Positions 14,484-32,813 are shown, counted from the stretch's first letter. The stretch is DNA of 64,000 bases from a bacterium (GCA_030431455.1 JAUIJE010000016.1:1-64000); one strand, 5' to 3'. Numbers and translations: made by a program. The notes: generated by a model from the letters alone, not told the origin.

Positions 14484-14548
14484 GCCGCATCTTACGCCAA
14501 CCCGGGGGCGCGGTTGCCGGGGGCGGACAAAGACGCGACAAAGTGGGC

Positions 14549-15358
14549 ATGGATGCCGAACGCACGGTGCGCGTCGAGCGGCGCGGGGACAGCGCGCCCG
14601 GGCCCCACGATGACCTCGTGGCCCACGAGGAGCCGTTGGGCATCCGGGTGCAGGGCGTCGATGTCGCGGTGGTGATGCGCACCCCGGGGCACGACCTCGA
14701 TCTGGTGCGGGGCTTTTTGGTCACCGAGGGGCTCGTGTCCCGATCCGCAGACATTGTGCGGGTGGCCCACTGCGACCAGACCACCGAGGAGGCCGAGGAC
14801 AACATCGTGGACGTGGTCCTGGGGCCCGGGGTCGCGCTCGACCTCGACGGGCTGCGGCGCAATCTCTATGCATCGTCCAGTTGCGGCATTTGTGGCAAGG
14901 CGACGGTGGACAACGCCATGCGCACCGCGCCCCCCCTGACCGGGCGCCCCCAGTGGGACCTCGGCCAGGTGGTGGGCTGGCCTTCGCGGCTTCTGGCCCA
15001 CCAAGAGACATTCCGCCGCACCGGGGGCCTGCACGGGGTGATGCTGGTCGACGACCAAGACCGCACGATCTGCGTCCGCGAAGACGTGGGGCGGCACAAT
15101 GCCGTGGACAAGGCGGTGGGGGCGGCGCTGGCCGCGGGGCGTTTTCCCCTCGAGGGGGCGGCGTTGGTGGTGTCGGGCCGGGTGAGCTTCGAGGTGGTGC
15201 AGAAGGCCGCCTTTGCCCGGGTGGGGACCATCGCGGCGGTGAGCGCGCCGACGTCGTTGGCGGTGCGCACCGCGGACGCGTTGGGGATCACATTGTGTGG
15301 CTTTGTCCGAGATGGCCGCTGCAATGTTTACGCGCACTCGTCGCGCATTCGTTCATAG
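14549..15358 (+). CDS. fdhD: Formate dehydrogenase accessory sulfurtransferase FdhD
   Basis: FdhD moves sulfur from the cysteine desulfurase to the molybdenum cofactor of formate dehydrogenases. The 269-residue protein has the diagnostic SSCGICGK loop whose cysteines carry the persulfide, the early EEPLGIRV strand, the GFLVTEGLV motif and the C-terminal VREDVGRHNAVDK signature. An in-frame GTG at 14543 is an alternative start. No formate dehydrogenase gene is in the window, but mobA lies tail-to-tail with it, overlapping by 31 bp, so the locus is dedicated to molybdo-enzyme maturation. Confidence 0.92.
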   Translation: MDAERTVRVERRGDSAPGPHDDLVAHEEPLGIRVQGVDVAVVMRTPGHDLDLVRGFLVTEGLVSRSADIVRVAHCDQTTEEAEDNIVDVVLGPGVALDLDGLRRNLYASSSCGICGKATVDNAMRTAPPLTGRPQWDLGQVVGWPSRLLAHQETFRRTGGLHGVMLVDDQDRTICVREDVGRHNAVDKAVGAALAAGRFPLEGAALVVSGRVSFEVVQKAAFARVGTIAAVSAPTSLAVRTADALGITLCGFVRDGRCNVYAHSSRIRS

Positions 15359-15909
15359 AGGGCGGCCCACTCCGCGGGGGTGTTGGCCCCCCGCAACCGG
15401 GTCGCGGTGGCCGCGTCGACGGGGATGTGCGCGGTGGGGGCGAGGTCGAGCAGGCGCGACAGGGCGCGGCGGCCGCCGGCGAGCTCGCGTTGCGCCGCGC
15501 CACGGACCGATTGGTGCACGAGCAGGGGGAGCACCAGCGGTCGGCCGTCGTGCACAAACACCGCTTGGTCGGCGGGGGCACCGAGCAGACGCCACAGGTC
15601 GAGGGGGGTCACCGCGGGGGCGTCGGCCGCACACACCAGGTACTGCCGGGCCTGCACCGCGTGCAGCGCATCGGCCACCGCGGCGAGGGGGCCGCGCCCT
15701 CCGGCGCGGTCGGGCACATGGTCCGCGAGCACAAACGGGGCGCGCCCGACCTCGACGACGCGCTGGGTCACGTGCCGCAGCGTGTCGGCCACGCGCTGTG
15801 CCGCAGTGCGTCCATCCGGACAACGCAGCGCGGCTTTGTCCTGTCCCATGCGCGTGCTTTGCCCGCCGGTGAGCAGCAGCCCGGCGACGGGGACGAAGGG
15901 GGGCAACAT
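15328..15909 (-). CDS. mobA: Molybdenum cofactor guanylyltransferase MobA
   Basis: MobA attaches GMP to molybdopterin to give MGD or bis-MGD, used by DMSO-reductase-family enzymes such as formate dehydrogenase. The 193-residue protein opens with the GTP-binding loop LLLTGGQSTRMGQDKAAL, and the middle segment LVCAADAPAVTPLDLW corresponds to the metal-binding DxP region. Length is normal. Its 3' end overlaps that of fdhD in the antisense direction. ATG 15909 chosen from the -10 spacing. Divergent from the multi-enzyme fusion gene. Confidence 0.9.
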   Translation of the reverse strand: MLPPFVPVAGLLLTGGQSTRMGQDKAALRCPDGRTAAQRVADTLRHVTQRVVEVGRAPFVLADHVPDRAGGRGPLAAVADALHAVQARQYLVCAADAPAVTPLDLWRLLGAPADQAVFVHDGRPLVLPLLVHQSVRGAAQRELAGGRRALSRLLDLAPTAHIPVDAATATRLRGANTPAEWAALYERMRDECA

Positions 15910-15915
15910 GTCGCC

Positions 15916-15921
15916 AGTATC
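15916..15921 (-). promoter_or_regulatory. -10 element of mobA, leaderless arrangement
   Basis: GATACT on the minus strand, then six nucleotides and ATG 15909. No ribosome binding site is present. Confidence 0.45.
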
Positions 15922-16003
15922 GCACGGTGGGCGAGGAGAAAGCGTGAGGTCGCCACCGCGCTGGGTATATGCTCGATCGCGTCCACCATCAGGAGGGCAC
16001 GAC

Positions 16004-19000
16004 GTGCGCGAGGGGCAGGGAGATTTTGTTGGCGGGGGGTTCGTTCGGGGCACGGCCGCGCGCCGGTTGACGTCGGAAAATCCCGCCCAAGATTTTGCGC
16101 CGGTGTTCGCCACCGACGTGGTCAGCGGGCACGTGGCCGAAGCCGTGTTCGCCGCTCGCTCTGCCCAAAAGCGGTGGGCGATCCTGTGCGAGGCCGGCCG
16201 CGTCGAGGCGCTCGAGCGGTTGGCCGACGCGTTCACCGCCCGGTGCGAACAGATGGCGGAGGCCATCGTCACCGAGACGGGCAAGCCCTGGCGCGAAGCG
16301 CAGGCCGAAGCACAATCATTGGCGGCCCGGGTCAAGCTCATGACCACCCACGGGCTGCTGCGCATCGCCGACCTCGTCCCCGACGGGGTCACCGGCCGGG
16401 CCCGGGCCCACGCCCAGGGTGTGCTGGCGGTGATCGGGCCGTACAACTACCCCGCCCACCTGGTGAACGCCCACGTCATCCCCGCGTTGCTCACCGGCAA
16501 CGCGGTGATCGTCAAGCCGAGCGAGACGTGTCCCTGGGTGGCCGAGGTCTACGCCCAATGTGTGGCCGACGCCCGCCTGCCCGACGGGGTGTTCAACCTC
16601 GTGCAGGGCGATGGCCAGACCGGGGCCGCGCTGGTGTCGCACCCCGGCATCGACGGGGTCCTGTTCACCGGGAGCTACAACACCGGGCGGCGCATCCTCG
16701 AAGCCACCCTCGATCAGCCCCACAAGATCTGCGCCCTCGAGATGGGGGGCAAAAACTGCGCGGTGGTTCTCGACGACGCGGACCTCAAGCAAGCCCTCGC
16801 CGCGGTGCTGCAGGGCGCGTTCTTGTCCGCGGGCCAGCGCTGCACCGCCACCTCCCGGGTGCTCGTCGACCGGCGCGTGCAAGAGCCATTCATCGAAGCG
16901 TTGTCCCGGGCCGCGCGCATCCTCGAGCCCAAAGACCCGTTTGATCCCACCGCGCCGTTTGGACCGTTGGCCAACCGCCCTGCGTTCGAGCGGTTCGTGG
17001 CCTTGCGGGAGAAAGCAGGTACATTGGGTCTGCGGGTCCTGGTCGAGGGCCGCACCCTCGAAGGGGGCGCGTTTGTGACCCCTTCGGTGCACGTGTTGCC
17101 CGCGGGCAAACGCGAGGCGCCGGGTTACCTCGACGAGGAACTGTTCGGCCCCGATCTCTGCGTCGAGGTGTTCGATGGGCTCGACGCGGCCATCGACCGC
17201 ATCAACGAGAGTCCCTACGGCCTGTCCAACGCCCTGTTCACGTCCGACGACGCCAAGTTCGAGCGGTTCTTCCTCGAGACCCGCTCCGGCCTGTGCAACA
17301 AAAACCGCAGCACCAACGGGGCCAGCGGGCTGCTCCCCTTCGGCGGGGTGGGCAAAAGTGGCAACCAACGCCCCGCGGGCATCGACGCGGTTCGGTACAC
17401 CACCTACCCGGTGGCGGTGCTCGAGGAGCCGCTGGGCAAGGTCGAGCTGCACCCCTCGTTCGCCACCGCCCAGAGCACGGGGGCAGACGCCCTGCAGCTC
17501 AGCCTCGAGCACCTGTGTTGGCGCCAAGAGGTCGAGGCCATGCTCGAGCGGTACCGCATCCCCTGCGACGGCGTGGCCGGGGCGGTGCTGCGCATCCCCA
17601 TGGACGCCTTCTTGCGGTACCGCATCGACGGGCAGAAGGTCGGCCCCCAAGAGATCAAGCGGCGCTTGGGGGGCTTTGTCACCACCGAGCCCGACCACAT
17701 CTTGCTCACCGTGCCGCCCCCGGAGGAGGGCACGATGGGCGAGTTCGCCGCCGGGTTGCGCGCGCTGCTGCAAGCCATCGGCCGACAAAACCCCGACAAG
17801 GTGCTCGAGCTGCGCCGGCTCCGGGTGACGCTGCCCCCGGGGGGCCATCTGCCCCGGTCGGAGCAGTTCTTGTCGCGCCTGTACGACGCAGAGTTTTTGC
17901 CCCGGGAGAAAAAGACCCCCGTCATCGACGCGCACCACACCCGCGGCCCGTTTTTGGCCAGCGTGGACAAGGCCCCGCTCACCATTCTCGACGCGGCCAG
18001 CCAGATCGCGTCGCTGGGCCTCGGCTTTGCCCCCGGGGCGATGCTCGCCCCCTACGACGAGGATCGCTGGACCGATTGCCTGTTGAGCAACCACTGCGCC
18101 GAACAACAAAACCCCAGCGTCCCGTTCGCGCGGTTTTTGACCTCTACCGCCGGGCACGGCCTGGACCAAGCGCAGTTCTGCGCCGGCGGCTCAGAGGCCA
18201 ACGAGCGCGCCTTCGACCTCTGCCGACGCCACGGCCCGGGCGGCCGCACCGTCATCGCCTTCGAGGGGAGTTTTCACGGCCGCACCCTGGTCTCGTTGTT
18301 CGCCACCCACAACCCGGTCAAGCGCGCCCCCTACGAGCTCCCCGGCTACGAAGCCCGCTACGTGCCGTTCCCCCGCTGGGCGGACCCGCGGCGCGAGCCG
18401 GTGGTGACCGATGCCTGGATCCAAAGCTGGTCCAATGGCATTGCGCCGACCGCCACCGACCCCCTGATGAACGCCGAGGTCGCCGCCCTCACCGCCCTGC
18501 GCGCGGCGGTGGACCAAGGCGATGTCTGCGCGGTCATCGTCGAGCCCATGCAGGGGGAGGGCGGGGACAACTTCGGCACCGCCCGCTTCTTCAACGGGCT
18601 GCGGGCCCTGACCCGGTTCCTCAAGGTGCCGCTGATCTTCGACGAGGTCCAGGTCGGCTTCGGCCTGTCCCGCGACTTCTTTTGGCACCACCGCTTCAAG
18701 ATGCGCGACGCCCAAGGCCGGCCCGACGGTCCCGACTGCGTGACCTTGGCCAAGAAGGCCCAGCTCGGGGTGTGCTTGTCCCGGTGGGCCGACGACCGCG
18801 AGGAAGAGCCCCACCAAATCCAAGCCGCCCGAGGCCTGGCCCACGCCGAGGGCATCGTCGCGCTGGGGGTGGCCCACGTCGAGAACGACGTCGCCCACAA
18901 GCTGCTGCAGCTCTCCACAGATTATCCCGAGCTGGTGCTGTTCCCCCGCAGCCGGGGCCACAGCTTCGCGTTCGACTTGCCCGACCAAGCCACCGCCATG

Positions 19001-21136
19001 GCGGTGGTCAACCAGCGCTTCATCCGCGGGTTCATGGTCTACATCGCGGGCGAGCGCACCTTGCGCTTCCGTCTCAACCCGGCGTTCAGCCGGGGCGACA
19101 TCGCGCGCCTGTTCGACGCGATCCGCGCCACCCTCGCCGACATCGCGGGGGCGTTGGCCGCGGGCACCCCCAGCGACCAGATCCCGCTGCCGGCGTGGCC
19201 CACCGAGGTGACCCCCTTCGGCCTCGGCGACCGCGAGCCGGAGCTGCGCCGGGTGCTGCGCCTGCCCGCCCTCGCCCGGGAGCGGGCCTGCGACCGGTGG
19301 CTGCTCGACCTCGAGGAGATGGCCAGCGCCGACCTCGACCAGGCCCTGAGCCGGCTGTGCAAAGACCCCGCGGCCGCGCCCAATCAAATTGTGTCCGCGA
19401 TGCGCGCGGCCCTTGGCGAAGAGGGCTTTGACGCGGTGCAGGCCCGGCTCGGCCAATGTCCCTTGAGCGTGTTGTGCCACGCGCTGGGGGGCAAGGTCCT
19501 CGAGGTCACCAAAGAGGATTGGCCCGAGGTGCGCGAAGGCATTCTCGCCATCGAGAACGTGACCTACGAGGTCGGCCGGCGCGAAACCGAAGAGCAGCTG
19601 TTCGACATGATCGCCCAGCCCGGCGGCCTGGGCCTGGTGTTGTCCCGGCGCACCAACGCCGGGCCCCGCATCCTCGGCTATGCCTTCGGCGGACCGGTGG
19701 AGAACTTCTCCGCCGACGGCCCCAAGCAGGACAGCACCCGCGGCACCGGGGTGACCTTCTATTCGTCCAACATCACCCTCGCCCCCCACGCGCGCGGGGC
19801 CGGGCTCGGGCGCAGGCTCAAAGCCGAGCAGCTCCGCCGCGTGCGCGCCATCGTCGGCGACGACAACGCACCCCGGTACCGGTTCATGACCTCGCGCAAC
19901 CGGGTGGGGCTCGCCGAGCAGATGGGGACCATCAACCGCACCTACCAGGGCTACGTGGCCGCGCGCTACGTCGGCAACCAATACGGTGACCTGTCGGGTC
20001 AGGCCGAGTACGTGCGCGTGCCCCTGGCCCGGCCGGAGTGCCCCCAGCTGATGTTGAAGGCCGCGCCCCCCACCGAGCTCGATTGGTCGAGCTCGGTCCA
20101 GGCCCCGCTCGGTCGTCGTCACCCGGGCTTGGTCAACGCCATGCGGCACGGTGCATTTACATTCCCGGTGGGCACCAAGCTCACGTTGTCCAACTGGACC
20201 ACCCCGAGCATCGTGCGTTACGTCGAGGTGCTGCGGCGGCTGGCCCCCCGCGGGCTCGGCCACGCGTACTTCACGTCGGGGCGCGCGGAGTTGGTGGACA
20301 AGGGGCTGCGCGCGCTCAAGACCAAACGCACCGAAGGGCAGGTGCTCATCGGGCTCGAACAGCAATACCTCGGCGACGTCACCGCCGCGGCCCGCAGCTT
20401 GTCTGACCCCCGGGGCAAAGCCGAGCCTTACGGTTGGTTCGACTGGCCCAAGGTGCCGCACCCGGCGGTGGCGGGCCACGACGCCTCGATGGGGGCGATC
20501 CTCGCCACCGTCGAGCGACTCGGCCCCGCGCGGGTGCTCGGCATCGTCATCGAGCTGGTGGGGGAAAAGAGCGGCCTGGTGGTGCCGGACAGTTTCTTGC
20601 GCGACCTCGACGAGCTGCGCGCGTCATTGGGCATCCCTTTGGTCTACGTCGAGACCGCGTCGTCGCTGGGCCGGACCAGCCCCACCCTGTTCCGCTCCGA
20701 CGTGCTCAGCGTGCGCCCCGACATGGTGTGGTGGTACGCGGGCGGGCAGCTGGGGCACATCTTCGTCAACGACGCCCACTACGTGGACAAGCCGCTCACG
20801 TTGATCTCGACCTGGGACGGGGATGAGATCAGCGTGCTGCGGACCCGCCATCACCTGCTCGAGGGGCGGGCGCTGCTGAAAGAAGGCCGGTCCGAACGCT
20901 TCGAGCTCGCCCTGCGCGATGTCGCGCCCGACGTCACCCGGTACGGCACCGGCCTGTGGCAGGCATTGTCCCTCGGGGATCGGGCGGAAAAGTTCGTACA
21001 CTCTCTGCGGGACCGGGGCCTTCGGGTGGCCGCCGGTCTGCCCGGCCGGGTCGTCCTGTGTCCGCCCCTGTGCGTGACCGACGACGAGGTCCACCGGGGC
21101 ACGGCCATCGTCAAAGACGCGCTCGCCGCCCTCTGA
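16004..21136 (+). CDS. Four-domain fusion: AstD-like aldehyde dehydrogenase, class-III aminotransferase, GNAT acyltransferase, degenerate aminotransferase
   Basis: A 1,710-residue cytoplasmic protein. Residues 1-490: aldehyde dehydrogenase closest in pattern to succinylglutamate-semialdehyde dehydrogenase (GPYNYPAHLVNAHVIPALL), with catalytic Glu246 and Cys280. Residues about 640-1040: class-III PLP aminotransferase with GGSEANERAF, EPMQGEGGDNFG (as in lysine 6-aminotransferases), Asp880 and Lys917/918 as PLP-lysine candidates. Residues about 1165-1340: GNAT fold with the acetyl-CoA loop ARGAGLGRRL. Residues about 1355-1710: a second aminotransferase-like fold whose PLP lysine and DE pair are replaced (GGQLGH; VETAS). 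GTG start has AGGAGG 7 nt upstream and a TATGCT -10 at 15968. It heads an operon with the next two genes. Confidence 0.85.
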   Translation: MREGQGDFVGGGFVRGTAARRLTSENPAQDFAPVFATDVVSGHVAEAVFAARSAQKRWAILCEAGRVEALERLADAFTARCEQMAEAIVTETGKPWREAQAEAQSLAARVKLMTTHGLLRIADLVPDGVTGRARAHAQGVLAVIGPYNYPAHLVNAHVIPALLTGNAVIVKPSETCPWVAEVYAQCVADARLPDGVFNLVQGDGQTGAALVSHPGIDGVLFTGSYNTGRRILEATLDQPHKICALEMGGKNCAVVLDDADLKQALAAVLQGAFLSAGQRCTATSRVLVDRRVQEPFIEALSRAARILEPKDPFDPTAPFGPLANRPAFERFVALREKAGTLGLRVLVEGRTLEGGAFVTPSVHVLPAGKREAPGYLDEELFGPDLCVEVFDGLDAAIDRINESPYGLSNALFTSDDAKFERFFLETRSGLCNKNRSTNGASGLLPFGGVGKSGNQRPAGIDAVRYTTYPVAVLEEPLGKVELHPSFATAQSTGADALQLSLEHLCWRQEVEAMLERYRIPCDGVAGAVLRIPMDAFLRYRIDGQKVGPQEIKRRLGGFVTTEPDHILLTVPPPEEGTMGEFAAGLRALLQAIGRQNPDKVLELRRLRVTLPPGGHLPRSEQFLSRLYDAEFLPREKKTPVIDAHHTRGPFLASVDKAPLTILDAASQIASLGLGFAPGAMLAPYDEDRWTDCLLSNHCAEQQNPSVPFARFLTSTAGHGLDQAQFCAGGSEANERAFDLCRRHGPGGRTVIAFEGSFHGRTLVSLFATHNPVKRAPYELPGYEARYVPFPRWADPRREPVVTDAWIQSWSNGIAPTATDPLMNAEVAALTALRAAVDQGDVCAVIVEPMQGEGGDNFGTARFFNGLRALTRFLKVPLIFDEVQVGFGLSRDFFWHHRFKMRDAQGRPDGPDCVTLAKKAQLGVCLSRWADDREEEPHQIQAARGLAHAEGIVALGVAHVENDVAHKLLQLSTDYPELVLFPRSRGHSFAFDLPDQATAMAVVNQRFIRGFMVYIAGERTLRFRLNPAFSRGDIARLFDAIRATLADIAGALAAGTPSDQIPLPAWPTEVTPFGLGDREPELRRVLRLPALARERACDRWLLDLEEMASADLDQALSRLCKDPAAAPNQIVSAMRAALGEEGFDAVQARLGQCPLSVLCHALGGKVLEVTKEDWPEVREGILAIENVTYEVGRRETEEQLFDMIAQPGGLGLVLSRRTNAGPRILGYAFGGPVENFSADGPKQDSTRGTGVTFYSSNITLAPHARGAGLGRRLKAEQLRRVRAIVGDDNAPRYRFMTSRNRVGLAEQMGTINRTYQGYVAARYVGNQYGDLSGQAEYVRVPLARPECPQLMLKAAPPTELDWSSSVQAPLGRRHPGLVNAMRHGAFTFPVGTKLTLSNWTTPSIVRYVEVLRRLAPRGLGHAYFTSGRAELVDKGLRALKTKRTEGQVLIGLEQQYLGDVTAAARSLSDPRGKAEPYGWFDWPKVPHPAVAGHDASMGAILATVERLGPARVLGIVIELVGEKSGLVVPDSFLRDLDELRASLGIPLVYVETASSLGRTSPTLFRSDVLSVRPDMVWWYAGGQLGHIFVNDAHYVDKPLTLISTWDGDEISVLRTRHHLLEGRALLKEGRSERFELALRDVAPDVTRYGTGLWQALSLGDRAEKFVHSLRDRGLRVAAGLPGRVVLCPPLCVTDDEVHRGTAIVKDALAAL

Positions 21137-21156
21137 CCACCCGCGCGAAGGACCGC

Positions 21157-22209
21157 ATGCAACTGTCGATTCTGGCCCTGGAGGGCGCCACCGCCAAAGC
21201 CCGTGGACAGTGCCACGGCGAGAGCGCCCGGGCCGCGATCCACGAGCTGTACAAGATTCGTCTGGCCTTGACGTTGGAGCGCACCGACCTCGGCGACGAG
21301 GAGACTGCATTGGCATTGCTCAAGCGGCACGTGCCGGTGTTGGCGTCGTTCGACCCCGCTCTGTACGAGGAGATGCAGGGCATCGCCGAGGGGGCGGACC
21401 TTTCTCTGGAGCGGCTGGTGCTGGTCAACCACTACACGGATTTCCGCGACCTGTGCCGGGCCGACCTGCACGGGGGGGACCCCGGGGGATGCTCGGCGCT
21501 GTTCACCCCCACGCCCCAGGGGCCGGTGCTGGGCCAGACCTGGGACATGCACGGCTCGGCCTACGACCACGTGATGTTGCTGCAAGTGCCCGCCACCGAC
21601 GAGGAGCCGGGGCAGCTGCTGTTCACGATTTCCGGTTGCGTGGGCATGACCGGCATCAACCACCACGGCGTGTGCATGACCATCAACAACCTCAACTCCC
21701 TCGACGCCAAGGTGGGCGTGGTCTGGCCGGTGTTGGTCCGTCGCGCCCTGCGCGAAAGCCGCGCCGCCGCGGCCCGGGACGTGGTGTTGCACGCCCCCCT
21801 CGGGTCCGGGCACCACTACATCGTGGCCGACGAGCACGAGGTGTTCGGGATCGAGACCTCGGGGGCCAAGGAGAAGGTCACGCAGCAGGGCGCGGACCGG
21901 TTGCACCTGCACACCAATCACCCGCTCGACGACGACATGGCCGCCACCGCCCACATCCCCGACGACTCGACCTCATTGGTGCGCCTGCAAAAGCTGCAGG
22001 CCATCGATCCCGGCCGCTACCTGTCCGGCCGCGCGGTGTACGACGCCCTCGCCGACGTGAGCATGGCCCTGCCCGGGCCGGAGACGCCCCACAAGGCCGC
22101 GACCTGCGGCGCGTTCGTGATGGAACCGCGCGCCCGCCGGGTGCACGCCGGCCGCGGCCCGGTGGGGGCCACCCCGCCGGTGATCCTGGAGGTGCCCGCG
22201 CATGGATAA
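21157..22209 (+). CDS. C45-family Ntn-hydrolase (acyl-CoA:6-APA acyltransferase-like)
   Basis: A 350-residue member of the C45 peptidase/isopenicillin N acyltransferase family, which hydrolyse or transfer amide-bound acyl groups after self-cleavage before a cysteine. The Gly111-Cys112 pair in GGCSALF is the expected processing and nucleophile site, and GPVLGQTWDMHG and NHHGVCMTINNL are family-typical strands. AAGGA precedes ATG 21157; the gene lies 20 nt after the fusion gene and overlaps the next gene by 8 bp. In this setting a deacylase removing the acyl group placed by the GNAT domain is attractive but unproven. Confidence 0.82.
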   Translation: MQLSILALEGATAKARGQCHGESARAAIHELYKIRLALTLERTDLGDEETALALLKRHVPVLASFDPALYEEMQGIAEGADLSLERLVLVNHYTDFRDLCRADLHGGDPGGCSALFTPTPQGPVLGQTWDMHGSAYDHVMLLQVPATDEEPGQLLFTISGCVGMTGINHHGVCMTINNLNSLDAKVGVVWPVLVRRALRESRAAAARDVVLHAPLGSGHHYIVADEHEVFGIETSGAKEKVTQQGADRLHLHTNHPLDDDMAATAHIPDDSTSLVRLQKLQAIDPGRYLSGRAVYDALADVSMALPGPETPHKAATCGAFVMEPRARRVHAGRGPVGATPPVILEVPAHG

Positions 22210-22912
22210 GATCGTGGCCGACGCCGAAGCCGCCCTCGCCGACCTCGAGGACGGGGCGCGCATCATGGTCGGGGGCTTCGGCCTGTCCGGCAACCCCGAG
22301 CACTGCATCACCGCCATCGCGGCGTCGGGAAAAAAAGACCTCACCATCATCAGCAACAACTGTGGCAACCAGCGGCGCGGTCTCGCGGTCCTGCTGCAGA
22401 ACCACCAGGTGAAGAAAGTCATCTGTTCCTTTGTCGGCGGCAACCCCGACTTGGAAGAGCAAATGCTCGACGGCAGCGTCGAGGTCGAGCTCAACCCCCA
22501 AGGCACATTGGCCGAGCGCATCCGGGCCGGCGGCGCCGGCATCGGGGCGTTCTACACCCCCACCGGGGTGGGCACGGTCATCGCCGAGGGCAAAGACGAG
22601 CGCATCCTCGACGGGCGCCGCATGATCCTGGAGACCGCGCTGCACGCGGACTTCGCCATCGTGCGCGCCCACCAAGCCGACGCCTACGGCAACGTCCGCT
22701 TTTACGGCACGAGCAAGAACTTCGGCCCCGCGATGGCCACCGCCGCCCGCACCACCATCATCGAGGCGGAGGAGATCGTACCCCTGGGGAGCATGCCCCC
22801 CGCGGACGTGCATCTTCCCGGCGTGTTCGTGCAGCGGGTGTTCGCGGCGTCGGAGTTCGCCAACGTGATCGAACACCACACCACCCGGCCGCGGCCGGCC
22901 TCCGGCAGCTAG
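22202..22912 (+). CDS. 3-oxoacid CoA-transferase, subunit A
   Basis: A 236-residue ScoA/AtoD-type subunit of family I CoA-transferases (succinyl-CoA + 3-oxoacid exchange). The CoA-binding GGFGLSGNPE motif (24-33), the FVGGNPDLEEQMLDG segment and ELNPQGTLAERIRAGGAGI are intact, and the length is normal. The catalytic glutamate of these enzymes lies in subunit B, and no B gene follows: the next gene is on the other strand after a terminator. The partner must be elsewhere, or the subunit has another role. Overlaps the C45 gene by 8 bp. Confidence 0.9.
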   Translation: MDKIVADAEAALADLEDGARIMVGGFGLSGNPEHCITAIAASGKKDLTIISNNCGNQRRGLAVLLQNHQVKKVICSFVGGNPDLEEQMLDGSVEVELNPQGTLAERIRAGGAGIGAFYTPTGVGTVIAEGKDERILDGRRMILETALHADFAIVRAHQADAYGNVRFYGTSKNFGPAMATAARTTIIEAEEIVPLGSMPPADVHLPGVFVQRVFAASEFANVIEHHTTRPRPASGS

Positions 22913-22916
22913 GCAC

Positions 22917-22951
22917 AAAAAAAGCGCCACCTTACCGGTGGCGCCTTTTTT
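22917..22951. terminator. Bidirectional intrinsic terminator
   Basis: Seven A, then a perfect 8-bp GC-rich stem (22924-22931 with 22937-22944, 5-nt loop), then six T. It follows the CoA-transferase stop by 4 nt and also serves the convergent lipoprotein gene ending at 22965. It is the only canonical stem-plus-T-tract terminator I found in the window. Confidence 0.93.
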
Positions 22952-22964
22952 GGCTCGAAGCGGC

Positions 22965-23693
22965 TCACTGACCGAGACCACACTCCGTCTGGCACACGCC
23001 CATGTCGAGGGGCAGGCCTTGGCCGGCGAGCTCGACCCCGCAGCACGTCTGGCCGTCGGGGCAGTCGGCGGTGGCGGTGCACACCAGAAGGCCGCCGCCG
23101 CCGGTGCAGGACCCTTCGGCCACGCACATGCTGTTCGCTTGGGGCGGGATGGCGAGGGCGATGGTCGCGCAACACTCTTCGCCGGTGGCGCAATCATTCT
23201 GGGTGTCGTCGCAGGTGAACGGGAAGAGGGTCTCGCACGTGCCCGGGCCGGCGTCGGGGGCGACCCCGCACGCGGCGCTCACGCTGAGGTCGAAGCCGAT
23301 GGTGCCGCAGCACGCCGCGCCCACTTCGCAGGTCGTCTGGTTGGCGGCCGCGCCGCAGACCACGCCGTCTTCCGGCTCGCCCATGTACTCGACGAAGCTC
23401 GCGTCGATGTCGAACGCCGCATCGGGAATGCCCGCGTCACCGTCGCCATCGCCATCCCCGTCACCGTCGCCATCGCCGTCGCCGTCGCCGTCGCCATCCC
23501 CGTCCCCGTCGCCGTCGCCGTCGCCATCCCCGTCGCCATCGCCCGCATCGGCCCCGGTGTCGCCCGCGTCGAGCACGGTGACCCCGGCGTCTTCGGGCCG
23601 GGGGGTGCCGTCGTCGCCGGTGCACGCGGCCCCCAGCGCCCACACCGTCAGGAGGGCAAACACGAACAAGAACATCGACTTGGGCAATGACAT
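22965..23693 (-). CDS. Gly-Asp-repeat Cys-rich lipoprotein
   Basis: A 242-residue lipoprotein: signal peptide with lipobox-like GAAC, a short acidic segment, about 17 Gly-Asp pairs, then a Cys-rich C-terminal domain of roughly 150 residues with repeated CC-containing units (GAACCGT, GEECCAT, GQTCCG) that look like three or four disulfide-bonded modules. Similar layouts occur in surface lipoproteins of myxobacteria and relatives; function unknown. GAGGAG lies 6 nt before the ATG. Monocistronic, ending at the bidirectional terminator. Confidence 0.75.
   Translation of the reverse strand: MSLPKSMFLFVFALLTVWALGAACTGDDGTPRPEDAGVTVLDAGDTGADAGDGDGDGDGDGDGDGDGDGDGDGDGDGDGDGDGDGDAGIPDAAFDIDASFVEYMGEPEDGVVCGAAANQTTCEVGAACCGTIGFDLSVSAACGVAPDAGPGTCETLFPFTCDDTQNDCATGEECCATIALAIPPQANSMCVAEGSCTGGGGLLVCTATADCPDGQTCCGVELAGQGLPLDMGVCQTECGLGQ
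23438..23541. repeat. Hexanucleotide GD-codon repeat in a lipoprotein gene
   Basis: Alternating GGN GAY codons on the minus strand (about 17 Gly-Asp pairs), made of GGCGAC, GGGGAT and GGTGAC hexamers. It encodes an acidic flexible spacer between the lipid anchor and the Cys-rich domain. Confidence 0.9.
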
Positions 23694-23815
23694 GGCAGTC
23701 TCCTCTGCGCGCGCCCGACCCGCGTTGCGCGACGGGCACGATGATGGTCTTGGTGTGCCGAACTGTCCGGAACGACGCAAGGGGGGCCGCAGGCGTGCGG
23801 ACGACATCTCAGCAC

Positions 23816-29469: not shown

Positions 29470-29507
29470 CCACGTCACCAAAGGTGGGACACACCCCGCG
29501 GGTGGCT

Positions 29508-29537
29508 TTGTCGTCGACCCGGCGAGCGCGGTACGCT
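29508..29537 (+). promoter_or_regulatory. Sigma-70-type promoter of the large GD-repeat lipoprotein gene, leaderless arrangement
   Basis: TTGTCG (29508-29513), 18-nt spacer, TACGCT (29532-29537), six nucleotides, ATG 29544. No ribosome binding site. Confidence 0.55.
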
Positions 29538-29543
29538 CGAACC

Positions 29544-32500
29544 ATGCGCATTTTGATTGGGGCACTGGCACTGGTTTTTGCGATCGCCATCGCGGGGTGC
29601 ATCGTCGGCGTCGATGTCGAGGGCAAGGCCTGCGACGACGAGCACCGCTGCATCGACGGGTATACCTGCGTGGACAGCGTATGCGTGGTTCGCGGGGACG
29701 GCGATGGGGATGGCGATGGTGACGGGGATGGCGACGGCGACGGTGACGGGGATGGCGACGGGGATGGGGACGGCGACGGTGACGGGGATGGCGACGGGGA
29801 TGGCGACGGCGACGGTGACGGGGATGGCGACGGCGACGGCGACGGTGACGGGGATGGCGACGGCGACGGGGATGGCGACGGCGACGGGGATGGCGACGGC
29901 GACGGGGATGGCGATGGGGACGGCGACCCCGGCGGCCCCTTGCCCCCGGAGGGGGCGGGCACGCTGGTGATCTCGGCGCAGGAGGTCACGGTGTTCTGGC
30001 AAGACAACGTGCCGGACGAGACCAGTTTCATTGTGGAACGGTCGGCGGCGGGCGCCCCGTTCACGGTGGTCGGCACCACCGCGGCCAACACCCTGACCTA
30101 CCGCGACGGGCTCGTGCGGCCGGCGACCGCCTACCGGTACCGCGTGCGGGCCGAGCGCGATGGTCTGGTGTCGACGTCGGCCACGGCCCCCGAGGTACAA
30201 ACCCCGGCCGGCCGGGTGGGGGCGGGGCTGGTGCTCGGGTACACGTTCTCGGCCCTGAGCGGCGACACGGTGGTCGACGTGAGCGGGGAGGACCCGGCCA
30301 TGGACCTGACCATGGGAGGCGGGCCCGGCAACATCCAGTGGCAGACCGATCCCGGCATCGCGGTGGTGGCCGGGCCAGCCGAGCTTCGTGCCCCTGACGC
30401 CACCAAGCTGTGGGAGCGCGGGGTCGCCACCGGCGCGATCACCGTGGAGCTGTGGTACCGCACAAGTTCGTTGTTGCAGGATGGGCCCACCCGCATCATC
30501 ACCTTGTCCGCGAACACCGACAGCGAGCGCAGCTTTACCCTCGGGCAAGAGGACGACGAGCTCGTGTTTCGGCTGAAAACCGAAACCGGGGACACCAACC
30601 AGGGCGCGACATCGTTCGGTTTTTTCACCGACACCAACCTGCACCACATCGTGGCCACCTACGACCGAGAGAGCGGCTTTGGCCTGTACAAGGACGGGGC
30701 GCCGGTGTCCCTCGACGTCATCGACGCCGACTACGGCGGGTTTGACGAGTGGGAGCCGGGCCTGCCGTTCTTGCTCGGCAACGAAGCCACCGGGGGCCGG
30801 CTCGCCCTCGGCACCTACCGGTGGGCGGGCGTGTACGAACGGGCCCTCTCCGTCGATGAAGTCCTGCAGAACCACGCCGCCGGTCTCCCCGCGCGCTTTG
30901 CCGACGAGGACGGCGACGGGCTCAACGACGCCACCGACAACTGCCTCGGCCTGCCCAACGCCGGCCAAGCCGACGCCGACGGCACCGGGCCCGGGGACGC
31001 GTGCACCGACGACGCGGACGGGGACGGGCTCGCCGACGACGTCGACCTCTGCCCGTTCGATGCCGATCCGGGCCAGCCGGACGGGGACACCGACGGGATC
31101 CCGGACGCGTGCGACCCGTGTCCCACCGACACCGGCGATGCCGCTCTGTCCGACCCCGACGGCGACGGCCTCTGCAACAGCGATGACAACTGCGCGCTGG
31201 CCTACAACCCCGGCCAGTCCAATGTGGATGGAGACGGGCTGGGCGATGCCTGTGACCCGGATCCCGACGGGGATGGGCTGTCGGGTCCCGCCGACCCCTG
31301 TCCTCTCGTCCCCGGGGTGCAATGTGACTTGGGCTGCCCGGGGAGCACCACCGACCAGGACGGCGATGGGCTGGCCGATGGCTGCGACAACTGCCCGATG
31401 GTGGCCAACCCCGGCCAAGAGGATGAAGGCGACGGCGACGGCGTGGGCGACGCCTGCGATCCGCGCCCGCTCGACGGGGGCGACAGCATCGCGATTTTTG
31501 ATGGGTTCAGCACCCCGGCCAGCCTCGACGACAACTGGTCGGCGGTGGAGGGCAATTGGCTGGTCGACAACGGCGAGCTTGTGTTCGCCGGCCCCCTCGA
31601 TGGCGGGTTGATCAGCAATGCCAATGCAGGGGCCAACGTGCTGGTGCAGGCCCGGGTGCGCGCGCTGGAGGCGATCCCGTACGATTCCATCGTCGGCCTG
31701 GGGTACCGGGTGGACGTGGGCTTCGACGAGGTCATGACCTGCTCGGTGGGCGTGTCCTGGCCCGGGTTCGTCTCCGTGGCCAACTACAACGACCTCGGCT
31801 ACTCCGACAGTCTCCACGTGTGGATGTCGCAGCCGCCGTTGTTCGCGAACCAAAGCGTGACCATCACCGGCGGGGCCTATGGATCGTTCCACACCTGCGG
31901 GACCGCAAGCGCCAGCCAGGTCGGGTGGCTGTCCAACTACCACGCGGGCGGGGGACCCATCGGGCTGTTCTCCGACGACGGGCGCATGGCGGTGGACTGG
32001 ATCGTGGCTTATTCGCTCGGCGGCCCCTTGGGGCCGGAGTTCGGCAGCGACGACCACTACGACTGGTCGAGCACCCAGGCGCCCCAAGCCCCGGACCGCA
32101 TAGAGACCTTTTCGTTGGGGCCGCCCGGCGACGCGGACTGTTTTTGGGTGAGCACCTCGGGGGCGCTGGTCAGCCGCACCTACGGTCCCGATCCCGGCGC
32201 CGGCTGTGGCGACAGCCGGCACCACCACATCTACATCTTCGACGAGGCCGAGAACGAAATCGACTTCGGACAGCACGAGCGGCTGGGCGCGGACTGCTCC
32301 ACCGCGATCACCCCCAACCTGCCCGGGGGCAACTACCTGGTGTGTGTCGAGTCCGAACGCGAAAACGACGGCGCGCTCATCGACATGATCATCGAATCGG
32401 CCGCCGACGCCCCCGGGGGGGCCGACTGCCTGAGCGCGGTCGACCTTGTGGGGACGAGCGGAAGCCAAGTCGGCACCTTCGTGCCCGGCAACGACCAGGA

Positions 32501-32813
32501 CATGAGCGGCATCGGGGGCTGCCCGCTCTCGCCGGGGAACGAAGCGGTCTATCGCGTGGACCTGCCGGCGGGCGCGACCTTGGACGCGACCTACACCGCG
32601 GAGGACGACGACAGCGACGAGGTGATCTACCTGCTCGCGGACTGCGCGGCGGCCGCGTGCTTGGCCGGCAGCGACACCAGCGGCATCAGCCCGGAGACGG
32701 TGTCCTACACCAACGCGACGGGTGCGGTGCAGTCTGTTTATGTCGTACTCGACGAGTGGGAGCCGAGCGGGGTGACCAGCGATTACCTGCTCGAGTGGAC
32801 GGTGACCCCGTAA
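29544..32813 (+). CDS. Large adhesin-like lipoprotein: GD linker, fibronectin-III, LamG-like and thrombospondin-3 repeats
   Basis: A 1,089-residue surface lipoprotein. Signal peptide with lipobox AIAGC; a short Cys-containing knot; about 39 Gly-Asp pairs (51-128); a fibronectin type III domain (about 135-215); a LamG/concanavalin-like domain (about 225-445, with ITVELWYRT and HHIVATYDRESGFGLYKDG); a run of calcium-binding thrombospondin type 3 repeats (about 455-650, DGDGLxDxxDNC...GDACD units); a second lectin-like beta domain (about 655-825); and two C-terminal domains with pre-peptidase-like features (DADCFWVSTSG, NYLVCVESE). Likely binds calcium and carbohydrate or matrix at the cell surface. 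Confidence 0.85.
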   Translation: MRILIGALALVFAIAIAGCIVGVDVEGKACDDEHRCIDGYTCVDSVCVVRGDGDGDGDGDGDGDGDGDGDGDGDGDGDGDGDGDGDGDGDGDGDGDGDGDGDGDGDGDGDGDGDGDGDGDGDGDGDGDPGGPLPPEGAGTLVISAQEVTVFWQDNVPDETSFIVERSAAGAPFTVVGTTAANTLTYRDGLVRPATAYRYRVRAERDGLVSTSATAPEVQTPAGRVGAGLVLGYTFSALSGDTVVDVSGEDPAMDLTMGGGPGNIQWQTDPGIAVVAGPAELRAPDATKLWERGVATGAITVELWYRTSSLLQDGPTRIITLSANTDSERSFTLGQEDDELVFRLKTETGDTNQGATSFGFFTDTNLHHIVATYDRESGFGLYKDGAPVSLDVIDADYGGFDEWEPGLPFLLGNEATGGRLALGTYRWAGVYERALSVDEVLQNHAAGLPARFADEDGDGLNDATDNCLGLPNAGQADADGTGPGDACTDDADGDGLADDVDLCPFDADPGQPDGDTDGIPDACDPCPTDTGDAALSDPDGDGLCNSDDNCALAYNPGQSNVDGDGLGDACDPDPDGDGLSGPADPCPLVPGVQCDLGCPGSTTDQDGDGLADGCDNCPMVANPGQEDEGDGDGVGDACDPRPLDGGDSIAIFDGFSTPASLDDNWSAVEGNWLVDNGELVFAGPLDGGLISNANAGANVLVQARVRALEAIPYDSIVGLGYRVDVGFDEVMTCSVGVSWPGFVSVANYNDLGYSDSLHVWMSQPPLFANQSVTITGGAYGSFHTCGTASASQVGWLSNYHAGGGPIGLFSDDGRMAVDWIVAYSLGGPLGPEFGSDDHYDWSSTQAPQAPDRIETFSLGPPGDADCFWVSTSGALVSRTYGPDPGAGCGDSRHHHIYIFDEAENEIDFGQHERLGADCSTAITPNLPGGNYLVCVESERENDGALIDMIIESAADAPGGADCLSAVDLVGTSGSQVGTFVPGNDQDMSGIGGCPLSPGNEAVYRVDLPAGATLDATYTAEDDDSDEVIYLLADCAAAACLAGSDTSGISPETVSYTNATGAVQSVYVVLDEWEPSGVTSDYLLEWTVTP
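29694..29927. repeat. Long GD-codon hexanucleotide repeat (about 39 units)
   Basis: 234 bp of GGN GAY codons. Hexamers GGGGAT, GGCGAC and GGTGAC recur in longer periodic blocks (for example GACGGTGACGGGGATGGC), which suggests block duplication rather than simple slippage. The frame is unbroken. Confidence 0.95.

Follow-up and report, generated by a model that had tools for sequence, protein, structure and literature searches.

What does a bacterium gain from joining an aldehyde dehydrogenase, two aminotransferase folds and an acyltransferase in one polypeptide, encoded directly ahead of an Ntn-type hydrolase and a CoA-transferase subunit? This question is raised by an operon in a stretch of 64,000 nucleotides (hereafter the window) from a 7.7 Mb Myxococcota genome. 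A preliminary description of the locus had read it as an acyl-protected amine pathway, in which an amine is acylated, a distal amine transaminated to an aldehyde, the aldehyde oxidized, the product deacylated and the resulting acid activated with CoA. Here we consider which of these activities the chain is likely to carry, how its two aminotransferase domains relate to each other and which substrate best accounts for the genes that accompany them.

A single reading frame at the head of a compact operon

The frame stays open from 15380 to 21136 on the + strand, and the gene for the megaenzyme (16004..21136, +; 1710 aa) runs within it from a GTG at 16004 to a TGA at 21136. An AGGAGG at 15991-15996 lies ahead of this GTG, and the start originally given at 16004 is therefore good. 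GC content by codon position indicates coding at 15380-21136, 20956-22209 and 22202-22912. The second gene, which encodes a C45-family Ntn acyltransferase/hydrolase (21157..22209, +; 350 aa), begins with an ATG at 21157, 20 bp past the TGA of the fusion, and the ATG of the third (22202..22912, +) lies within the end of the C45 gene, with an overlap of 8 bp; the spacings first reported thus hold. The operon is closed by a terminator-like hairpin read from the sequence, GCGCCACC-TTACC-GGTGGCGC, followed by a T-run (22924..22951, +). No riboswitch was found at the four loci scanned against Rfam, the sole match being one tRNA.

The two small genes have clear family assignments. The C45 protein scores 180.2 bits against NF040521 (cut-off 85) and 54.5 against PF03417, and the column of its predicted nucleophile, Cys112, is Cys in 31/33 sequences. 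It therefore shares with the C45 family both the score and the conserved nucleophile, and differs in belonging to a lineage that sits next to the fusion. The third gene encodes subunit A of a 3-oxoacid CoA-transferase (pcaI/scoA family; TIGR02429, 267.9 bits, above the cut-off of 128.5), and both CoA-transferase subunits belong to the 3-oxoacid family. In the lineage of the window no subunit B adjoins subunit A. The window genome, G000, carries a lone subunit B with no A beside it (G000:C18:495677-496297) and also a complete A+B pair elsewhere, while its relative G001 has a single B gene only, likewise with no adjoining A. At locus L066, subunit B does adjoin.

The flanks hold several other genes. 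Upstream of the operon (14543-15355 and 15353-15925) an FdhD sulfurtransferase gene adjoins a probable MobA-like gene, the latter called by eye and giving no Pfam match; FdhD is also found upstream of the fusion in L033. Just past the operon, at 22965-23807 on the - strand, lies a lipoprotein-like gene with a long acidic (DG)n repeat, and genes resembling it, several of them in tandem, occur near the operon in L032. Farther downstream (29484-32813, +) a 1109-aa protein is partly similar to the MYXO-CTERM thrombospondin-type protein MtsC.

Domain composition of the chain

Family matches and a structural model bear out the four domains originally listed for the 1,710-codon frame, namely an AstD-type aldehyde dehydrogenase (ALDH), a class-III aminotransferase (AT3), a GNAT domain and a second aminotransferase fold. 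Along the chain these occupy residues ~5-480 (ALDH), ~632-1044 (AT3), ~1162-1378 (GNAT) and ~1390-1702 (second fold). To the original list our analysis adds a small unassigned domain at ~500-630, a helical spacer ahead of GNAT and the loss of catalytic residues in the last domain. The small domain (17501..17884, +) is common to most ALDH-fused relatives and absent in Bacteriovoracales.

The ALDH domain (16016..17443, +) matches PF00171 with E=1e-106, and its catalytic Cys280, Glu246 and Asn251 are in place in 21/21 sequences, being invariant in 20 relatives. Its top subfamily is succinylglutamate-semialdehyde dehydrogenase (NF006992, 389.4 bits, below the cut-off of 514), and it falls short of the AstD equivalog TIGR03240 (367.8; cut-off 579.3). 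The GNAT domain (19487..20137, +) was recognized by fold. This region gave zero matches in Pfam and NCBIfam at E up to 1, AstA and AblB-like families included, and its AlphaFold2 model (pLDDT 90) adopts a GNAT fold that superimposes on RimI/Ard1 with a Z of 19.1 and an rmsd of 1.9-2.4 across 146-149 residues. The acyl-CoA motif Q/R-x-x-G-x-G/A is present as ARGAGLG, and its first position is Arg or Gln in 42/48 sequences, while the next motif Gly is kept in 44/48 and the last in 48/48.

A class-III aminotransferase probably divided over two domains

The AT3 domain (17897..19135, +) matches PF00202, and its best equivalog is L-lysine 6-transaminase (TIGR03251), at 108.6 bits against a cut-off of 520.8; against the AstC model TIGR03246 it reaches 80.3 of the required 609.95. 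The likeness to lysine 6-aminotransferase (LAT, Rv3290c) that had been noticed at the outset is upheld by both profile and fold, LAT being the nearest structure (Z 40.5, rmsd 2.3-2.4) and GABA aminotransferases the next. The second aminotransferase fold (20171..21109, +), here called pseudo-AT, barely passes PF00202 (30.8 bits; cut-off 30.5). Its reading as a second active enzyme does not survive alignment with intact class-III enzymes, in which the Asp and Lys that serve pyridoxal phosphate (PLP) are kept in AT3 in 24/24 sequences and gone from pseudo-AT in 24/24. A 48-row alignment gives the same picture, with Asp880 and Lys917 of AT3 (256 and 293 in the numbering of the AT3-to-end construct) unchanged in 48/48 and the corresponding columns of the last domain lost. 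Two active aminotransferases in the chain are thus ruled out, since pseudo-AT lacks the PLP Asp/Lys in every relative checked. The catalytic residues checked elsewhere in the operon, which an alignment might have found missing, are kept in ALDH, in AT3 (Asp/Lys) and in C45 (31/33), and the loss of Asp and Lys is that of the last domain.

What pseudo-AT retains is what AT3 lacks. Ordinary class-III aminotransferases use a Thr of one subunit to bind the PLP phosphate in its neighbor, so that the Ser-Thr-Trp loop is supplied by the other subunit. The invariant I-S-T-W-D-G of pseudo-AT (48/48) aligns with N328-S-T330-W-G-G-N of LAT, at which point the AT3 sequence is either deleted or unrelated and so lacks the STWGGN phosphate motif. 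The Thr equivalent to LAT T330, of which the PDB contains a T330S mutant, is present in pseudo-AT in 24/24 sequences and in AT3 in 1/24. For ordinary enzymes in the same alignment, Asp, Lys and Thr all stand in one domain (12/12 for the third aminotransferase of these operons, 3/3 for AstC-like proteins and 2/2 for HemL). LAT (PDB 2CIN, 2JJE) thus shares with AT3 its fold, the PLP Asp and Lys and an EGGD motif, and with pseudo-AT the STW of N328-S329-T330-W331. It differs in that every LAT subunit has all these residues, which here are split over two domains of one chain with GNAT between them, and AT3 both scores far below the LAT cut-off and is missing the N-S-T-W motif.

Because the losses in AT3 and pseudo-AT are complementary, the simplest reading of these alignments is that the two domains probably pair within the chain as an internal pseudo-dimer, whose single active site is composite and complete, pseudo-AT supplying what the site of AT3 lacks; the contact between the two domains is part of this reading. 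The AlphaFold2 model of the AT3-to-end construct is confident (pLDDT 92, pTM 0.90). AT3 and pseudo-AT fall into separate clades, and the split is therefore ancient.

Conservation of the fusion and its gene neighborhood

Seven further genomes from the order of the window carry the same one-frame four-domain fusion, 47-54% identical over the full length, and a shorter one-frame version occurs in three more genomes of family f5 in the same order. The fusion is therefore neither a product of chance nor an assembly join of separate genes, the possibility that had initially been named against it. A profile of the AT3-to-end region recovered 53 loci from genome contigs, nearly all of them Myxococcota/deltaproteobacterial or Bdellovibrionota (mostly Bacteriovoracales) by record title; the remainder is made up of unplaced MAGs and a single record that bears the title Candidatus Hydrogenedens. 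Across these loci, in diverse Myxococcota and in Bacteriovoracales, the AT3-GNAT-AT core is constant, and the architecture of the fusion is well supported. The lineage of the window and several more have the ALDH fused; in L058 it is a separate gene, and in Bacteriovoracales it is unlinked. Two genomes of the same order as the 7.7 Mb window genome, G009 (~0.5 Mb) and G012 (~0.3 Mb, a single contig), have completeness estimates of 91% and 87%, sizes that represent extreme genome reduction within Myxococcota.

The core is usually found near C45, a third class-III aminotransferase and CoA-transferase A/B. C45 adjoins it at most loci, convergent cases included (L037-L039 of family f14). In L058 the fusion, the separate ALDH, a CoA-transferase A whose ORF is long enough for A+B, C45 and the third aminotransferase share one contig. 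Bacteriovoracales have the order D-Ala-D-Ala-ligase homologue, AT3-GNAT-AT, C45, third aminotransferase, CoA-transferase A and CoA-transferase B, the ligase homologue lying directly upstream of the fusion in most of them (e.g., L061, L066 and L076). At the Polyangia loci an AraC-type gene, assigned by eye, is divergent from the operon, as in regulated catabolism. In one Polyangia MAG (L093:15485-18477) the fusion is followed by a 1-pyrroline-5-carboxylate dehydrogenase-like ALDH (by eye) and another class-III aminotransferase. The preliminary logic of acylation, transamination, oxidation, deacylation and CoA activation is borne out in part, in that C45 and the CoA-transferase stay with the core across Myxococcota and Bacteriovoracales. 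The view that the operon does not degrade lysine but makes or modifies a product derived from a beta-amino acid has a slim chance of being correct: GNAT, aminotransferase and C45 proteins are known from specialized metabolism as well, but CoA-transferase A/B and ALDH are present here, and the operon is conserved over two phyla with further biosynthetic genes absent.

The arginine succinyltransferase (Ast) pathway, on which the locus had been modeled, offers the same logic of acyl protection and an AstD to which the ALDH is nearest. We nevertheless reject membership in this pathway, as no AstA model is matched by GNAT, AT3 falls short of the AstC cut-off and the ALDH of that for AstD, and the deacylase is a C45 protein, not AstE. 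Moreover, related Bacteriovorax-type genomes hold separate clusters of an AstA-like gene (by eye) and an AstD-like gene (L181:5432-9370, L182:2627-6569, L183:5411-7956 and L185:5005-8946), three of the four with an AstC-like gene as well. These are probably the true arginine succinyltransferase route, distinct from the fusion operon. An Ast-like path acting on N2-acyl-alpha-lysine, leading to 2-aminoadipate and, through the third aminotransferase, to 2-oxoadipate, would suit a LAT-like AT3 and an AstD-like ALDH, and its parent enzymes exist in relatives as the probable Ast clusters; it would, however, have no need of a 3-oxoacid CoA-transferase or of the KamA-type gene described below, and we hold it to be improbable.

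Co-occurrence with a KamA-like gene

KamA in general is nearly universal in the phylum and does not discriminate, for which reason its mere presence was dropped as a marker. Only a KamA-like class of ~450 aa discriminates. In Myxococcota this class is found in 9/14 fusion genomes and in 1/181 others (Fisher p 2e-11, shared ancestry ignored), and in Bdellovibrionota in 19/22 fusion genomes and 0/122 others (Fisher p 6e-21, again ignoring shared ancestry). The co-occurrence is in part due to shared ancestry. The pairing is found in at least three lineages, i.e., the order of the window, family f14 and Bacteriovoracales, and KamA matches of similar size and score suggest the Polyangia-type fusion genomes as a fourth. 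Several fusion genomes without the KamA-like class carry a stronger-scoring KamA (e.g., 505 and 499 bits). The only sampled Myxococcota genome that has the KamA-like class and lacks the fusion is G019 (L131:3548-4912), where a stand-alone ALDH (L146) shares 44% identity with the fused domain.

The KamA-like gene of the window genome scores 259.9 against the lysine 2,3-aminomutase equivalog TIGR03820, below the cut-off of 525.4. Three residues of lysine 2,3-aminomutase, R134, D293 and D330, are those that we take to contact lysine. All three are kept by the KamA-like class when it is aligned to 2A5H, the Arg in all rows and both Asp in 15/16, with only the divergent row L132 deviating.

Together with the 3-oxoacid type of the CoA-transferase, this co-occurrence points to beta-lysine as the substrate. 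It also bears on the diamine substrate that had been suggested at first; in a route of this type N-acylated cadaverine, putrescine or a similar compound would be transaminated, oxidized, deacylated, transaminated again and activated with CoA. Such a route finds all its parts (GNAT, aminotransferase, ALDH, C45 and CoA-transferase) present and linked, but leaves both the KamA-like gene and the 3-oxoacid type of the CoA-transferase unexplained, which makes it distinctly unlikely. meso-DAP was considered as a substrate too and rejected, because its transamination would give a keto acid and not an aldehyde.

A candidate route from beta-lysine to 3-oxoadipate

The reading that we favor, with a probability of roughly 0.4, is that the operon serves a route from beta-lysine to 3-oxoadipate in which AT3 and pseudo-AT form the composite site. 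Here the domains, the complementary losses, the conserved operon and the KamA co-occurrence are read from sequence, and from them we infer the route, its substrate, the acyl donor, the order of the steps and the thiolase. In this proposal, lysine would be converted to L-beta-lysine by the KamA-like aminomutase encoded elsewhere, and the GNAT domain would acylate the 3-amino group to give N3-acyl-beta-lysine. With this group acylated, the later 3-amino-6-aldehyde would be kept from cyclizing to a pyrroline, a protection also seen in the Ast route. The AT3/pseudo-AT pair would then remove the 6-amino group at a single site composed of the PLP Lys and Asp from AT3 and the phosphate-binding Ser-Thr-Trp loop from pseudo-AT, leaving a 6-aldehyde that the AstD-like ALDH would oxidize to N3-acyl-3-aminoadipate. 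The C45 enzyme would strip the acyl group, and the resulting 3-aminoadipate would be converted to 3-oxoadipate by the separate class-III aminotransferase, which is operonic in many relatives. CoA-transferase A/B would form 3-oxoadipyl-CoA, and a thiolase, none of which was seen in the operon flanks, would yield succinyl-CoA and acetyl-CoA.

The three fused activities would thus be consecutive steps; in Bacteriovoracales the genes that come after the fusion (C45, third aminotransferase, CoA-transferase A and B) track the remaining ones in order. An N-acylamino aldehyde is also favored by the proximity of the ALDH to AstD, which acts on an N-acylamino semialdehyde. Some observations speak against the proposal. 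The KamA-like gene is not linked to the operon, no such link having been found in the KamA-like gene neighborhoods. The Bacteriovoracales operon is without an ALDH, so that an unlinked one would have to serve, and the nearest AstD-like ALDH in these bacteria mostly adjoins AstA-like and AstC-like genes (by eye).

The same parts can be arranged in another order, which constitutes the main alternative. The catabolism of N6-acetyl-beta-lysine in Pseudomonas B4 (EC 2.6.1.65 and 3.5.1.63) likewise starts from beta-lysine and combines an acetyltransferase, an aminotransferase, CoA activation and a deacetylase. In a Barker-type route of this kind, GNAT would acetylate N6 of beta-lysine, an aminotransferase would give 3-oxo-6-acetamidohexanoate, CoA-transferase and thiolase would produce 4-acetamidobutyrate, C45 would release GABA, and AT3 and ALDH would convert this to succinate. 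Every part would be employed, the 3-oxoacid CoA-transferase and the KamA-like gene included, and GABA aminotransferases do rank after LAT among the matches of AT3. However, the ALDH is AstD-like and not SSADH-like (389 bits against 241 and 202), the fused activities would correspond to the opening step and the final two, not to a consecutive series, and the gene order is fitted less well. ALDH class and fusion order are better suited to transamination of the 6-amino group, and we regard the N6-acetyl order as unlikely. No gene set for it was found in the open-access literature.

Fermentation of lysine through 3,5-diaminohexanoate with the 3-aminobutyryl-CoA aminotransferase Kat (PMC3149608) provides a further comparison. 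It shares with the beta-lysine to 3-oxoadipate route a lysine 2,3-aminomutase as the first enzyme and the combination of a class-III beta-aminotransferase with CoA-transferase A/B, and differs in proceeding without acyl protection, GNAT, C45 or ALDH.

Concluding remarks

No description of the proposed route was found in the open-access literature. Our tentative view is that the operon gives predatory-type bacteria an undescribed form of lysine catabolism, which passes through N-acyl-beta-lysine and 3-oxoadipate and depends on an internal pseudo-dimer megaenzyme with GNAT between its halves. The taxa that break down lysine in this way would probably be the myxobacteria and Bacteriovorax-type bacteria. 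One Lys of AT3 and one Thr of pseudo-AT, more than 600 residues apart in the chain, are expected both to be essential to a single active site. If so, the megaenzyme would be a clear example of a symmetric homodimeric enzyme turned into an asymmetric single chain through complementary loss. If the route is correct, it would place the aerobic breakdown of beta-lysine on a genetic footing, and such a capacity would suit the protein-rich prey diet of these bacteria.
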